Positions 49,669 through 60,592 of a stretch of DNA of 64,000 nucleotides are shown piece after piece. Under the pieces are notes generated by a model. The model did no database searches, was not told where the DNA came from, and worked only from the letters and a program-made list of their open reading frames with translations. This stretch comes from Lentinula raphanica. Taxonomy: Eukaryota; Basidiomycota; Agaricomycetes; Agaricales; Omphalotaceae. The first letter of the stretch is position 1. Each line of letters begins with the position of its first letter. Position numbers and translations under genes: made by a program. The stretch covers positions 310,001-374,000 of the forward strand of contig JANVFP010000027.1 in assembly GCA_027919835.1 (NCBI GenBank), given 5' to 3'.

Positions 49669-49934
49669 CTGTACCTCTCTGTAGGGAGGCAACCGTCACG
49701 TGACCTGTCACGGAACTTTTTTGGCAACCAGGCCAAATTTTGCCGTGACAGGGCCTGATTTTGGCAACCCGCCGACAAATTTTGAGAAAATTTCGAGTGT
49801 TTTGGAAAAATTTTGGACCTGTCACGGTCCACAACTGGCAACTGGCCTGAAATTTACCGTGATGTCACGGTGTTCTGGCGACGCAACAAGGCCTCCGTGA
49901 CCGTGACCGTTGCCTCCCTACAGAGAGGTACAGT
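49669..49934. mobile_element. 266-bp foldback/MITE-like element
   Basis: Ends are inverted: CTGTACCTCTCTGTAGGGAG from 49669 and its complement up to 49934, continuing to about 26 bp perfect (through GGCAAC) with extension into GTCACG after one mismatch. It is flanked by TA on each side (49667-49668, 49935-49936), as for Tc1/mariner-type MITEs; an ACA flank on both sides is an alternative reading. The inside holds repeated GTCACGG/CCGTGAC blocks in both orientations. No ORF. It lies 89 bp after the GGPPS stop. Confidence 0.75.
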
Positions 49935-49980: not shown

Positions 49981-49988
49981 ATGCATAC
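49981..49988. repeat. Target-site duplication, left copy
   Basis: ATGCATAC directly before the left terminal inverted repeat; identical octamer at 55000-55007. Confidence 0.85.
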
Positions 49989-50050
49989 CAGGGGGATGGC
50001 AACGGAGAATTCCGTGAAATCGACTAGTGCAACACCCCCCCCGTGAGAAC
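49989..50050. repeat. Left terminal inverted repeat (62 bp)
   Basis: Starts CAGGGGGATGGCAACGG, ends eight C residues then GTGAGAAC. Mirrors 54938-54999. Confidence 0.92.
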
Positions 50051-50304
50051 TATGAAATGCCGTTGATGGTTGTTGCGGCCGAGCGGCGTTAACTCTGATT
50101 TCTACCACCAACGATGTACCGATTCACCATCGATAGTGGCGTTGCGAGTGCGCGACGGACACAAACTACACCAAAAATGTCATCCTTATCTGTCAATATA
50201 TCTCTTATTAACCTCTTTATCTCTGAGTCCATAAAACTGCCTCCCCAAAGTCTCTTGTCACTTTCTAACATTAGCCTCACATCTTCCGTTCTTTGGTCTG
50301 CAAA

Positions 50305-53300
50305 ATGGGACGAAAAATCGCGCCGACTCTTCGTGAATCAGCTGAAATTCATATCAACAATGGTCCTATCCTACATACCATCTACCACCACTCTCAGGAA
50401 GGCAAAAAATTCTGTTATCACACTGTCCAATGTGATCTCTGTGGCAAGGAGATCAAACTTAATCGACTCGCAAATCCAATCGCATTATTTCAGCACCGGA
50501 CAGCATGTGCTAATCGAAGAGATCGGGCAAAATCGTCAACGGAACAGTTGAGCTCGAGTTCAATGGTTAGCATAAGTGATATCGTGCGTGATCTTTTATT
50601 AAGTCTTCGTTCTTCATTAACATTCCGCTAGATCGATGCTGTTAATGTCCGAAAACAGCCCAACCTGCGAACCGCAAACTCTTCACGCTCACAATCTCCG
50701 CTCCTTCTCTCTAGTCCGTCATCTCATACTCCGGCACCTCTGAGTCGGAGTCCATCACCGGCTGAAGAGGTGGACTCTCAATTTCAAGTTATTAGGTTAT
50801 GTCGTGACTCTCGCATTAATGGTGCCTTGCACAACTCTTTACCATGTCCTGGCATCATGCTTTCCTGGAAACCAGGCTCAATCTGGGATACATATCCTTT
50901 TGCACTTCATGCTGTCCAGGATGTTGGTTGGATACCAATTGGGCCTGGGCATGGTTCTCAGTCTATTCAGCTAAGATCAGATAAGTGCCAGTTCCCAACA
51001 ACTGGTGGTTCTGGTTTACCTTGTGATACCTGTTGTGCTTTGGAATATAGTAGTAGATTCATCAATTTCATGGCACAGGCTGAAGAGGTCAAGGAGCGTA
51101 CACCATGGAAGTATCTTACTTCAACACAAAGGGAAAAGTTGATGAAGAAGATGACATTGACTGCAAAGCAGTTACGCACAAAGGTGAGTTTTTTTGAATT
51201 ACCCTTTGATTAATTTGACAAAATTCATTACTGTAGCTCTCAAATGCAAGTAGGCGGCTTATTGTTGCGAGACGCCGTATTTCAGATCACTCCCGCATTA
51301 TGATGATGCTTGCTAATCATGATTTTCCAGCCCTTCGACGCCTACTTTCCGTTGCATTACGGCGTGGTGCATCACCAAATCATATTATTGAAAAGCTACA
51401 GCAATCCTTAGACAAGTTGTATTCACCAAGAGGTGGTTTTACACAGAGAGATCTTGATATTGCTTTTATTGCCAAAGCCCTTGGAGGGCGTCGATTGCTA
51501 TATACACTGACCAAGGGAATCGGATTACCTTCTGATCGTACAATTCGGAATCGCTTTCCTATACCAAAATTGTTAACATCAATTGGTCCCCCAACTAGCT
51601 CAGAAATTGATAACAATATTTCTGCTTTTTTCAATCCATCTATGCGACCTGCATCACCATCTTATCAATCTCATCCAAGCCTCCCTTCTTTGATTCCAGG
51701 AAATGTGCTTATGTTTGATGGAATTGCACTTGAAGGCCGTTGTCGTTACTGTCCCCAACGTGATGTTGTATCAGGTTTTTGCCGTGAACATGGACAAGCA
51801 ATCTCAATGAAATGTGATACTATAGAATCTATCGAAAATATGCGTAAAGCTGTAGAGGATGGGAAACTTTGTTTTGGGTGTGATGCAACTGTAGTGGCTC
51901 TAGCACCATATGGACGCAGTGATCATTATTCACCAGTTCCTCTTGTTCTTTCTCCATCAGATAAGACAGAAAAAGGTGAACAGTTATCTAAATGGATACA
52001 AACTCTTCTGGACTGCTGGAGAAAAAATGAGCATGGTGCAACATTGCATGGCCCAATATGGTCCTTGGCAAGTGATGGGGATTCTACATTTCGTCTTGCA
52101 AAACATTTGCTATGTATGACAACAAACCTGAATCTTACCAGTGATCTAGGTAGGATTCTCTGTAATCTTCCTGGTCTGAATCTGTGTACCTCTCAAACTG
52201 GTATTACTGGTACATGTGATCCAAAGCATATATTCAAACGGTTTGCAACATTATTGCGAAGTCCAAAGGGTGTTATGGTATTCAGAGATTATCTTACACC
52301 TGATAAAGTCATCAAGCAATTATGCTCCCTTGAAGGTGTAACCCTTGAAAAAGCACAAGGTCTTCTAGATCCATCTGATAAGCAAAATGTACCCAAAGCT
52401 GTCTCCCTTATTCAACATCTACTTCAGCTCAAGAATCAAAACACTGAATTTATCATGCCATCTGAAGTCCAGCACAGAAATTCTTTAATATTCTTGGCTG
52501 AAGTATTGGGCTATTTCCTTCAACCTTTTATTGATATTGACATGTCACTCTCTGAACAACTCAAATCTCTTTCTACTTTTGCTCACCTTGCTGCTGCAAT
52601 GTATCTCAAACATGGTACTGCCTGTTTCACAGGTGCCCTCTACCATGATTGTCAAGCTGTAATCAAAAATATTTATTTTACTGTTGCCCGAATGCAACTT
52701 GTCAGCCCAGATCTTTCACTGTACATCATCTTAGAGGGTACAGATCGGCTTGAGGGACTTTTCTCTGATGTTCGGACACAAGATCATGCTCGAAATTTTG
52801 ATATTGCACAGCTTTCAGAAAAATTAGGATCATCTACCATACTCAATGCTACATATCAGCGAAATCCTGATTTGGATCAAGGTCATAGGCGCTTGAGCTT
52901 GAAAGATGCAATGGGAATTGATCACATAAATCCACGCTCTTGGAAAGGGAATGTTCAAGTTAATGGAGTGCAGCTTGATGTTATGTGGAACCAAGGACAA
53001 GTTCATGCAAATAAAATATTGAAGGAAAGATATTCAAATGAAATTGCAGAAATCAATCCAAAGAATTTCAACCATTATAATTGTGATCTTCTTCGTCCTA
53101 CTGGGGGAAAGTATGTTGGTCTAAATTCTGAAGTTGATGATGAAAGATCTGAGAGAGCAGAAGACAGTGGTGAACAATCTGATACCAATACAGAGTTGAA
53201 TCCTAACAATGAAGGTGGCATTGAGGAACTTGGTATTGATCTAGATGATTTCATGCCACCAACACCTGAGGAGCCATCTAATGAATCAGATTCAATATTT

Positions 53301-54798
53301 TCAAAAACAATGAAAATTGGAGAAAAAACATTTTATAAATCTTCTCTTGTAGCTACTCTGTGTTCAAACCGGGCTAAAAAAGTAACAATGCGAACCCTTC
53401 GAGCTCGTGGTGTTGCACTTGAAGATCTACAAAAAACTAAACAAGAAGAAACATTGGATCAAGTTGATCTAGATGGTCCTGATTTAATCAAAACAGGTGA
53501 TGTTGTAGGCATTCTTGTGCGTATAAATGATAAAGTAGCCTTTGCAACAATGGAGATTACTGGTTTTCAGTCTGGAACAAGCAAGAGTGTTCAAAGTTTC
53601 ATTGAATTCAACAAGTTGGATTATGGATCTGATACAAATTTAACAGTATCTGGTCATATATTAGAATTGAATCGAAAGACTTCAAACTCACATTGGTATT
53701 GGACTGGTCAATATATCAAAATCCTACCAGTTCTGGCTGAGAAGTATCTTACACGACGTCATCTTGTTATTGAAGTTTCTGGTACACTAATATTTCCTCT
53801 TGCACCATCAATCATTACTGAGAATTCAATTGGTTTAACTGCTGGTTCAACACCAAAACTTACTTGGAGTTTTGATGAGAAGCAGCTTTTGGAAACATTT
53901 GAAACTGCATGGCAGGCTTTAGACCCAGAGAGTCAAGATGCTGTTGCAAATCTTGCTGTTTTACCCATCGTGAATCCTTCAGAAATGTTTCCCTATAGTG
54001 ACAACAATGTACCTTATTTTGTCTTGTCAAATCTACCAAATCATCTAAAACCTTGTCCCAAACTTACACGTCTCTCCAAGGTTGAATGTTTTTTGTGTAA
54101 GAGATATGATGGAGACAAAAAAATAGCTTTATACAAAATGCGAGAACATGTTGGCAGACACATTCTTCAAGCTATGAGAGATATTGATGATCCTGATCCA
54201 TCCCAAGTGAAGTGTGAGGTAAGATAATCATACTAGTTGTGATATCATTAGCATTATTGAAAATTGATTGCTTCAGGTTGGCTTGGAACCTTGTGGCTTT
54301 TGTGGTCAAGATGAATGCATAACATCACTTAGATTTACAAAGAATGGGCATCCTCAAGTATCAAGTAATTGTCCATACTATTATGAAGGTATGAGATATA
54401 TTGATCCTGTCAATACATCCAAGAAGCCAAAATGCACAAATACTCCAATCCAATGTTCATTATGTCCCCCATCATCTATGGGATTACCACTCACTATCTG
54501 GAAATATAACTTCTCTATCCATGTTGCAGAAGCACATACCTATGATCAGCCTGCAGATTTTCTTGCACCAGCACAAATGATATCTGATGCCTTCATCTCA
54601 CAAGCAGAGGAAGTACATATGGGAATTGATGCTCAAGACACTGAAGATTTTCGGAACAGGCATATGGTACCAGATAGTGATGGTTTCGAGGCAGTGAGAG
54701 AGGTTTTGAAAAGAGATAGAGCAGCTACTATTACTGTACATACATATACAAAGAGGGCACGGGCAGGTACATACAGTAAAGGAGGCAAATCAGATTAA
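50305..54798 (+). CDS. Putative P/hAT-like DDE transposase, 1,438 aa
   Basis: Four exons, 50305-50565, 50632-51183, 51237-54218 and 54277-54798, all phase 0, no internal stop. An N-terminal zinc finger has C43, C46, H64, C68 (C-x2-C-x17-H-x3-C), suited to binding the TIRs. Exon 2 holds SWKPGSIWDTYPFALH. Exon 3 holds candidate catalytic acids: LMFDGIALEGRCRYC (D about 432, with a Cys pair), LASDGDSTFR (D about 551/553), TGTCDPKHIFKRFATLL (about 599) and EGTDRLEGLFSDVR (E about 777), which resembles the glutamate motif of P-element transposases. Exon 4 has CGFCGQDEC and CSLCPPSS, Cys pairs that may bind zinc. It resembles a protein family I know as hypothetical in Agaricomycetes, but I cannot name it. 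Transposase role is inferred from the TIR/TSD frame and these motifs. Confidence 0.8.
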
Positions 54799-54937
54799 TG
54801 TATCTAGTATGAAATCCATATTCTCATTAGTTTCTTCAATGTGTAAAGACTTTCTGAGACCGTAACTCGAGTTGCTGCCTCGGACATGCCATACACCGGC
54901 TGTACAGATGCCGCATCGCTTATCACGGCAACCTTGA

Positions 54938-54999
54938 GTTCTCACGGGGGGGGTGTTGCACTAGTCGATTTCACGGAATTCTCCGTTGCCATCCCCCCG
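54938..54999. repeat. Right terminal inverted repeat (62 bp)
   Basis: Complement of 49989-50050 with one difference (second terminal base). Confidence 0.92.
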
Positions 55000-55007
55000 A
55001 TGCATAC
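55000..55007. repeat. Target-site duplication, right copy
   Basis: ATGCATAC, identical to 49981-49988. Confidence 0.85.
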
Positions 55008-57126: not shown

Positions 57127-60100
57127 ATGAGCTTTTACTCGTTTCAGTTGAATACATCAGATTCTCAGAATGCTGAACCTCTACCGCGATCTTTTGGACC
57201 TGTATCGCCATCTTCATTCTATCGCACTCCGCAACCTCGAAACAAGACCAATCGTGTAGCTATTTCTACTACATCTCCCTCGTGTCCTATCCTCGCCACA
57301 ACTCAGAGCACCTCAGCTATTCCATCCTCACCAGCCTCTCCGCAACTCAAACGAAGGAAAGAGAACGATGGATTTACAGTTTACACTTCTGATCGACCTT
57401 CTGTTCCGAAGAAGAGGAAACTCAAGCTCAGCCCTCTCCAAAAGCTCGAGTCCATCCTGCATCATATACAGAGTCTAGATTGGTCCTACAGTGACTATCT
57501 ATTCTACAGCTCAGAGTGGAGACATTTTACACGGGGCAATGCACATTCTACCGCCGTCGAGAAGTTCCTTAGTGGTAGATGTAACCATCATCCAGGAGAA
57601 ATCATCCGAAACTGGTATAGCTCACCTGACGGTCGTCTCGGGGATGCCGACCTTCTCTCTTCTCACATGTGGTCTACCTCTGAACCAAAATACTACGAGA
57701 TCAAGCATATTCGTGCTTGCTTGACCTCGTTTGCTGCACAAATCTGTATACAGCATGCTGTTCACCAAGCAAAGGTTGCTGTCAGGCCTGAAAGTGGACT
57801 TCACGTCCGTCTATCTGTGAAAGGAAGCTCTGGTTCTACTAAGAGCCCTGTTCATACGGAATGGGCAGATATTGGGGCAGACACCACGTCCAGAGTTGGT
57901 GACATTTTCCGAACCTTTGAGCCTTTTCTATACGATTTTCTCTCATGCGTTGCCTCTGGAAATACGGAAATCAATAAAACCATCACGCGCAAAACACGGC
58001 CCATCAACACTGTACGTTCTGACATTTAATATTTAACCTTCGAAGAATGCAGAGATTGACTTGTATCATGTCAGGTGGTTACACACTCAATTGCCGCTCT
58101 TAATTTCTCCCTCAACCGTCGTGCAAATTGGCTCCCTGTAGCACGAGGGATCCTCTATTTTTCGACCTCTGCACCTGTGGATCTGTTTGCTTACGAAAGT
58201 CGTACTGGAACCATGCCCGCGTACAGTACTATCTACGGAATTCTTCGAGAGCTTGGTAATGAAGAAGGCCTTGCAACACGAGCTGCCGGAACTGACCCAA
58301 ACCTTTGGGGAAAAATTTTCTTCGATAACACGCAGCGTCATTTGCGGCAGAGGGATATGCGGGCTGGCCAAGAGAACAAGATGTCGGTAGGCATTGCGGC
58401 AACATTCGTCGAGTATGCTGAAGGTACTTTCCCACCGGATGTCCATGATATCAACGACAAGAAAGCCCGCATCGCTAAAAATGAGCGCGCCCACATTGAT
58501 GTTAACTTTTTCATCGACTTGATCAACGACAAACACCTAGAGACTGTGGGCATGATTCAATGGCTGGATTCTCTCGTCACTCAGATCCCCGAGCTTGCTT
58601 ATCTCAAACCACACATTACCTCGCTTTACAAGACAAAGGGCGCCATAGACCGTCTACCTCCTCGGGCTTCAAAAATCCATTGTCTTTCGACTGTAGGCAA
58701 GAATGAGAACGTCACCGGCGAACTTTATTCCTCCATCCTCGATTTCTTTGCGCAGATCGGACAGACAGCCGACTCGTATAGCTCCCGGGTATGGCCAGTT
58801 GGAGGTGACGGACTTTCCTATCAGAGGCTTCTGGAGTTGAAGCGCTACATGCAGTACGAGGAGAATGAGCTGCTCAACCTGGGCCTACTCGAGCCTCAGC
58901 TCGAATGGTGGCACACAATGTGGCAAGATCTCAATCGACTCTATGAGACTCACTGGGGAGAGCCGCTAAGTCGGGATCCTTCGACGTTTGGCCATAGCTC
59001 CCGCAAAATCGGTCGCGAAGATCCATCAAACCTCAAGAAAATCGATTATTACCCAGGGATACAGCTTGCGTACCTTGTGTTGGACACTCGGATGCTTGAC
59101 TGTTGGAGGTACGTTGTGTTCACTTCGAATCTCAAGATCGGCATGCTTACGCTCAGCTTCGATAGACTTGCGTTCAATACAACGGATATCTTCCAGTATT
59201 TTCGAGAACTCAGCAAGAATGACAGTCTACCCACGATTGAGGTTCTCGAATCTATGGCAAAAACTCTCTTTCATAGCTACAGCACTACGCAGGCCTATTA
59301 TCATGCATTGCATGATGCCGGTGCTTCCGAGAACACTTCGTCGTGGAACAGAAGTGTTCCTGTGGGGACACCTTGGATGGGAGTTGCAGATGATCCCTCG
59401 ATGGTCGATATGGGCCTTATGTTCACGAAGTCAAAGATTCGTTCGGCTGTGAGCAAACCAATGAAGCAGAGGAGACCAACACGAAAAGAGAAAGAGGCAG
59501 ATGAAGAAAAGCAGAAGATACGCACAACGGGCGATCGGGTCTTGGCCAACTCCATCGCATTCATGCGTGATGCTCTCCTGTCACGCGAATGTGCCAACGC
59601 TGTTGCATCCGGTGATGTCGGTAGAGTTTGGGAGGTTTTAAAGGTCAGTTACTTTTGCTCACTGTTGTCGGTAATCGCTCACTTTGAAGATACAGGTCAT
59701 GTTATTCACATTTGCAGGCTCTTCTCATTCGAAATACACAACCTATCTATTGGAAACAATCACCTCGCTTGAACTTGAATCGAGCCAGCCCCTCCGTAAT
59801 GCACTACTCCGAACAATGCTCATCAACCTCAGCGGTAAACCTGGTGCCTTCTCCCCTTGTGATATCATTCAAGAATATTTCAACCGTCTGCTCGAGTTCA
59901 TCGTGGAACGTAAAGGAAAAGAGTTTGACCATGTATTCATCCAGCAGATCATCTCGCGCAACCTTCACCGTATGTCTCAAGTCAAAATTGATGCCAGAAC
60001 AAGTGTCGGTCTTGCGCATCACTCCGGTCGTCACAGTGAGCCGCACTCCAATCCCGAAGTTCGAATACTCTTGAAACAATATGCTCACCATGAACTTCAC

Positions 60101-60592
60101 TTGCGGCGTGTGGGGCGCTATGTGGAGGAACGGGATACCGACAATTTCATGAAGGGTTGGAGCAAGTTGGACAATGGGAAGCTTGCAAAATGGGTTGACG
60201 AAACTGCAAGTGCTCGAGTTAGACTCGACGTCGATACGCGTGTTGCTGCTCTTGATCACTCCTTCCCAGAATCTCATTCCGACCTGGATATTCCTGCGAC
60301 TACTGCTTCTGACCCTCTGGTGGACAACAATGACTGCAATGATGGGGACTTTGCCGACAGTGATACTGATACAGAAACCGATGTTGAGTCAGATGATGAA
60401 GATGACGACTTCGAGACCACGCTTGGCATGGCTGAAATCCATGATGGTACTCTGCACATGACCACTTTGGAGGTCGAGGATATGCTTGAAGAGTTTCTGG
60501 ATGAAGTTGAATGTTCTCAATCAGATAGCGGCGAGGTAAGTATCAAGTCTCATCATTGGTATATACATTCTAATCGCTGCATCTAGGACTAA
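57127..60592 (+). CDS. DUF6589 domain protein, 1,099 aa
   Basis: Exons 57127-58011, 58075-59643, 59696-60535 and 60587-60592; all phase 0. The N-terminus is Ser/Pro-rich with a nuclear localisation signal (PKKRKLK, about residue 95). Then a helical region (LHHIQSLDWSYSDYLFYSS). The DUF6589 core has WPVGGDGLSYQRLLELKR (about 537), LLEPQLEWWHTMWQDLNRLY, DPSTFGHSSRKIGREDPSNL, KIDYYPGIQLAYLVLDTRML and DCWR. Exon 3 opens LFTFAGSSHSKYTTYLLE and has MLINLSGKPGAFSPCDIIQE and HRMSQVKIDARTSVGL; the C-terminus is very acidic. The family has no known function; the GGDG/GDQ plus His-containing core suggests to me a nuclease or transposase-like fold, which is inference. Bases 59110-59163 (GTACGT...CTCAG) could be an extra in-frame intron. 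Stop codons of this gene and the helicase are 24 bp apart. Confidence 0.8.

Follow-up and report, generated by a model that had tools for sequence, protein, structure and literature searches.

A probable autonomous-type cut-and-paste DNA transposon of Lentinula raphanica with a candidate core closest to that of P elements

The element and its gene

The analysed window is a stretch of 64,000 nucleotides from the basidiomycete Lentinula raphanica (assembly GCA_027919835.1, contig JANVFP010000027.1, positions 310,001 to 374,000, forward strand), in which a 5,011-bp element with inverted ends and a gene for a zinc-finger protein, referred to as the transposase, occupies positions 49989–54999. Window coordinates are used throughout, except for L-numbered loci, which carry their own local numbering. 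The element is flanked by ATGCATAC at 49981–49988 and again at 55000–55007, so that the borders drawn in a preliminary description, made from the letters alone, hold. The terminal inverted repeats (TIRs) measure 63 bp (49989–50051 and 54937–54999) instead of the 62 bp given there, and the single mismatch counted there was retained and placed at position 2 (CAGGGGG / CGGGGGG). The gene lies on the plus strand in 4 exons, separated by 3 phase-0 introns, and encodes 1,438 amino acids without a stop in the reading frame; this model was reproduced as one of 24 enumerated stop-free GT-AG combinations and was picked on splice sites. The G+C content of the element is 0.41, compared with 0.48 in its flanks. 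Taken together with the copies, relatives and protein features described below, the locus very probably holds a cut-and-paste DNA transposon that is complete and of autonomous type; its core is closest to P, though the element is not filed as P. The features are as follows.

49981–49988, no strand: target site duplication, left 8-bp copy, ATGCATAC
49989–50051, plus strand: left TIR, 63 bp, starting CAGGGGGATGGC
50305–50565, plus strand: transposase exon 1, ATG at 50305, C2HC finger at residues 43–68
50632–51183, plus strand: transposase exon 2, its 3′ end at the same aligned residue as in the related locus L021
51237–54218, plus strand: transposase exon 3, candidate catalytic residues D432, D551, D599xxH602 and E777 (D161, D280, D328/H331 and E506 in exon numbering), C2H2-type pattern at residue 1222
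54277–54798, plus strand: transposase exon 4 including the stop, C2H2-type pattern at residue 1325
54937–54999, minus strand: right TIR, 63 bp, 1 mismatch to the left TIR
55000–55007, no strand: target site duplication, right 8-bp copy, ATGCATAC

Immediately left of the element, at 49702–49862, GACCTGTCACGG forms the basis of direct and of inverted repeats.

Copies, relatives and target sites

The genome (49.06 Mb, 75 contigs) was searched for further copies and non-autonomous derivatives, as the preliminary description had proposed, and internally deleted copies were found at separate sites; repeat counts from these searches are lower bounds. A query made of the left duplication and the adjoining 54 bp of the left TIR matched 15 places: the window copy and six shorter copies with two ends each, and the lone end L030. 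Three of the shorter copies, L024 (827 bp), L025 (825 bp) and L026 (774 bp), retain the first 386–464 bp and the last 310–444 bp of the element at 96–99% identity, and both the beginning and the end of the transposase gene can still be made out in them. Their flanks are mutually unrelated and their respective duplications are ATTACTCC, ACTCTTGC and GTCACAGC. L024 and L025 have a common internal deletion junction at two unrelated sites, from which it follows that a derivative lacking the transposase has itself moved, and which points to mobilisation in trans. The remaining three (L027, L028, L029) are about 550 bp long and more diverged, and L027 and L028 share their flanks. The family has thus been mobile recently, which bears out part of the earlier wording 'probably active'; activity at the present day is presumed. 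In L026 (568–590), the left terminus carries a 10-bp partial tandem duplication, as if the end had been repaired after slipping.

A genome search with exon 3 returned 11 matches, corresponding to the window copy and four other loci: L020 (C8), L021 (C5), L022 (C4) and L023 (C2, a fragment). L021 lies inside 60-bp inverted repeats with one mismatch, which start CAGGGGGG and are bordered by the perfect 8-bp duplication AGTTCACC; L022 lies inside inverted repeats of approximately 89 bp with more than 10 mismatches, likewise starting CAGGGGGG, with the perfect 8-bp duplication GGCTCTTC. Both pairs of ends are of the CAGGGGG type. The preliminary description had made its reading depend on such TIRs occurring with this protein elsewhere, and related genes inside similar ends with 8-bp duplications are found at these two loci. 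L020 has one end of the family-2 type. Family-2 ends were matched at 21 and family-3 ends at 6 places of the genome, own ends included.

In-frame stops are present in L020 and L022. For L021, a first splice model ran into stops and a frameshift was considered; this was overturned when the GT-AG choices for the fifth intron were enumerated and five stop-free readings were obtained, for which reason L021 cannot be called broken. The reading with a GTAAGA donor gives a protein of 1,464 amino acids that, aligned with the window protein over 1,497 columns, is 36% identical to it, and L021 may accordingly be a second intact element of the same kind. Intron 2 falls on the identical aligned residue in the window gene and L021, the two positions of intron 1 are near each other, about 17 residues apart in a poorly aligned linker, and the coding sequence of L021 is continuous where the window gene has intron 3. 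Two open frames of 176 and 103 amino acids were observed between the transposase stop and the element end of L021 (1759–2631, minus strand), possibly a second gene, which the window element lacks.

These copies and relatives bear directly on the reading of the locus as a host gene that merely sits between two unrelated terminal repeats. Such a gene would agree with the finding of only one full-length copy of the window's exact family in the genome; the derivatives, however, retain both ends of the gene inside the repeats, and two related genes lie inside their own repeats with perfect duplications, so that the host-gene reading is in practice refuted and hardly deserves any credence.

Target sites were assessed on two-ended copies found in the genome searches, whose flanks were compared. 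Across the three end families, 17 independent two-ended insertions were counted, after L028 (flanks shared with L027), L043 (flanks shared with L041), L045 (left terminus not found), L020 (one end), L030, L048 and L051 (single ends) and L023 (fragment, no ends found) had been dropped. All 8 bp are duplicated in 15 of the 17, which exceeds what chance would give; the exceptions are L029, with 7 of 8 bp, and L041, with none. Duplication lengths of 2–12 were tried on the 16 tabulated copies (L050 was found via its own repeat), and a length of 8 was the clear fit except for L041 and for L026, whose terminus is offset by 2 bases in the table and whose duplication match requires the terminus at 568. 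L041 is flanked by the same sequence as L043, in reversed orientation (98% over 309 bp), and neither of the two shows a target site duplication; this suggests a single old insertion inside another repeat.

Base composition was evaluated for 16 duplications with both strands pooled. Of the 32 sides, 20 had G as the outer base, where the controls averaged 7.3 and none of 20,000 resamplings of neighbouring sequence reached the observed count; 14 had T as the next base, where the controls averaged 8.7 (3.4%). Insertion is therefore biased towards GTNNNNAC-like targets, a preference found in hAT and P elements alike.

The protein and its candidate active site

Scanned one by one, the four exons of the window gene gave no convincing match in Pfam, nor did exon 3 in PDB or exons 1, 3 and 4 in NCBIfam. 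The four core members had no convincing match in Pfam or PHROGs, two sub-regions none in Pfam, and the profiles none in PDB. Weak matches to TSCPD (E 0.005), Med13_N and a design-like repeat protein were taken as chance. None of 79 pattern matches in viral contigs and none of 38 in prokaryote contigs was confirmed as a relative. As positive controls, the fly P transposase core matched all three Pfam P models (1e-17 to 5e-7), and a hAT transposase from the same genome matched PF05699 (9.8e-13) and found Hermes in PDB (4.5e-6). Since these controls worked, the protein family is regarded as an orphan at the sensitivity used.

An alignment of the four members contains 25 invariant D, E or H columns. 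Invariant acidic residues are located in the DGIALEG, SDGDSTF and TDRLEGLF motifs named in the preliminary description and in CDxKH (DPKH). The C2HC finger claimed there is present as a pattern at residues 43–68, where C-x2-C-x17-H-x3-C has BED-type spacing; its counterpart in exon 1 of L021 scores E=0.017 with zf-BED, below the curated cut-off.

According to the available portion of PMC8230255, the P signature consists of D, D, [C/D](2)H and E, represented by D230, D303, D339 and E531 in the fly enzyme. The D, D, DxxH and E of the family align in order with these four residues. Short profiles around the four candidate residues were scored against every ordered D-D-D-E choice in the fly core: among 5,866 choices, the true P quadruple ranked 10, 20 and 25 with windows of 11, 17 and 25 residues, respectively. 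The true fly partner ranked first for the first Asp (of 23 Asp) and for Glu (of 13 Glu) at all three windows, and that of the DxxH Asp ranked 1, 2 and 3 at windows of 11, 17 and 25 residues. In the reverse test, the chosen quadruple ranked 1, 6 and 5 among 144 ordered invariant quadruples of the family. As DxxH had been picked with P in mind, this ranking was not fully blind. Around the Glu, D-x-[LIV]-E-x-x-F is present in 3 of 4 members, with N for D in the fourth, compared with NQDIVEHFF in the fly. The stretch between DxxH and E, in which P enzymes carry their GTP-binding insertion domain, spans 178 residues, against 192 in the fly, and no PF21788 match was obtained; the distance from Asp to Asp is 119 residues, against 73 in fly P. 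A P-like active site thus has moderate support from these comparisons.

A number of results weigh against the proposed transposon and its core, besides the single full-length copy noted above. No convincing transposase match was obtained in the Pfam and solved-structure profile searches, and two single-sequence structure models reached a mean predicted local distance difference test score of 34.7 and 35.3, too low for them to be of use in judging an RNase H-like core. The second Asp ranked 8, 4 and 7 of 23 against its fly partner, and the top-scoring sets of the fly core used D425 and a later Asp in place of D303 and D339. Other quadruples of the family scored higher than the chosen one, 5 at window 17 and 4 at window 25. 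None of the single motif windows beat shuffled P sequence, and hhalign against P transposase had no significance (probability 0.1). In L022, the second motif reads SDEESSF and Asn replaces Asp before the Glu of the third motif.

The closest alternative is that the element is a very diverged true member of the P superfamily, akin to the P elements of rust fungi, which is a serious possibility although somewhat short of probable. The D, D, D(2)H, E order, which matches the published signature (PMC8230255, available portion), the comparable DxxH-to-E distance and the similar wording around E531 speak for it, as do the 8-bp duplications; P elements with such duplications, previously unknown in Dikarya, are recorded for rust fungi, and hence for Basidiomycota, in the part of PMC3164196 consulted. 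It is opposed by the greater Asp-to-Asp distance and by the Pfam P models, since the match lists of all four members lack TNP-like RNaseH_N, GBD and RNaseH_C. A six-frame search of the genome with PF21787 yielded nothing, but the controls were equally silent, hence this is no proof of absence. Further, no THAP-type pattern was found in the first 200 residues of the window protein, in which the C2HC pattern is located; the THAP finger is reportedly restricted to animals (PMC7776569, available portion). The earlier label 'P/hAT-like D-D-E' was kept in part: the three named motifs hold invariant acidic residues and, with DPKH, outdo most alternatives in their fit to the P catalytic signature, but the label is too loose, as hAT hallmarks, P profile matches and a THAP pattern were not found.

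Approximately 2 kb right of the element, a gene with DUF6589 (PF20231) is located at 57127–60586 on the plus strand. Its pieces scored E=4.9e-81 and 2e-33, and 37 DUF6589 matches were counted in the genome; no convincing terminal repeats were found around the gene. The abundance of DUF6589 and KDZ genes, along with short introns, fits a host from the mushroom group. It has a VGGDGLSYQRLLELKRY motif resembling the second motif of the transposase. Kinship of the two proteins was considered and rejected: hhalign first aligned the SDG motif, the match shifted elsewhere when an alignment of DUF6589 relatives was used, and the score of 16.4 compares with a median of 16.3 (11.6–23.5) for 60 column-shuffled controls.

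Mechanism and placement among known transposons

Most likely, the N-terminal C2HC finger would bind the 63-bp ends, perhaps helped by the C-terminal fingers, and a D-D-E site of RNase H type (D432, D551 and E777, with DxxH at 599–602) would excise the element. The catalytic role of the invariant residues and an RNase H fold are both presumed in this scheme. The excised element would then be joined to GTNNNNAC-like target DNA with an 8-bp stagger, and gap filling by host repair would produce the 8-bp duplication. The same enzyme would move internally deleted copies in trans, which could account for the origin of the derivatives.

The element seems to open a new branch within a known type of mobile DNA. 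It is proposed, as a tentative idea more doubtful than probable, that the three families form a superfamily of their own among eukaryotic cut-and-paste transposons, placed between P and hAT and outside current Pfam transposase models, characterised by a P-like active site, a longer, Cys/His-conserving stretch after the first Asp, an N-terminal finger with BED spacing, C-terminal C2H2-type fingers, CAGGGGG ends and GTNNNNAC-like 8-bp targets. None of the titles and abstract openings listed in full-text searches of the open literature describes the family; subscription papers and Repbase were outside this scope, so that an earlier description is possible. The available portion of the Laccaria bicolor transposon survey (PMC3411680) likewise holds nothing on it.

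Pfam, NCBIfam, PHROGs and PDB offered no convincing match for this protein family, which is now tied to a defined transposon, its derivatives and two sister families, and such genes could be annotated as transposases. If a P-like core without THAP were to be borne out, it would bear on the relation between P and hAT enzymes, and the unbroken window copy is a concrete object for testing this.

Three known groups were compared. For KDZ elements (Kyakuja, Dileera, Zisupton), the likeness consists of fungal occurrence and of the 8-bp duplications of Zisupton and Dileera, whereas the duplications of Kyakuja are 7 bp long and its ends are not inverted (PMC12730594, available portion). KDZ genes are also numerous in this genome, where the model PF18758 finds at least 158 places; when the exons and core members were scanned, however, it did not appear among their matches, for which reason the element was not filed as KDZ. 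An element of the Zisupton or Dileera type is accordingly considered very improbable.

The ends of hAT elements are CAGGG-like and their insertions are flanked by 8-bp duplications. Both traits are shared by the window family, as are the GTNNNNAC-like preference, which is equally P-like, and the BED-spaced C2HC finger, with a weak resemblance to BED in the L021 counterpart. An autonomous copy accompanied by short derivatives is a further likeness, given that active non-autonomous derivatives are described for MarorhAT-10 of the mushroom Marasmius oreades in the available portion of PMC9674265. Against a hAT assignment, the dimerisation domain PF05699 was not matched by any window exon, by the four core members or by the three L021 exons scanned, though the hAT from the same genome matched this model and found Hermes at the values given above. 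RW.S, a motif of the hAT insertion domain that was observed in the same-genome hAT, and SER.FS were found neither in the four cores nor in the full 1,438 amino acids, and the sequence after the candidate catalytic Glu differs. As the dimerisation domain and RW.S were not found, the element was not filed as hAT, and a diverged hAT element is judged unlikely.

With respect to the P superfamily (Drosophila P, THAP9 and the rust P-1_MLP and P-2_MLP, the last two likened by description and not by sequence), the element was not filed as P because of the missing P model match, the missing THAP pattern and the D-to-D spacing of 119 against 73. The ends of the window element are also longer, with 63 bp compared with 31 bp in P, and its protein has about twice the length of the P protein. 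The likeness to P lies in the order D, D, D(2)H, E, in the length of the DxxH-to-E stretch, in the 8-bp duplications and in the internally deleted derivatives.

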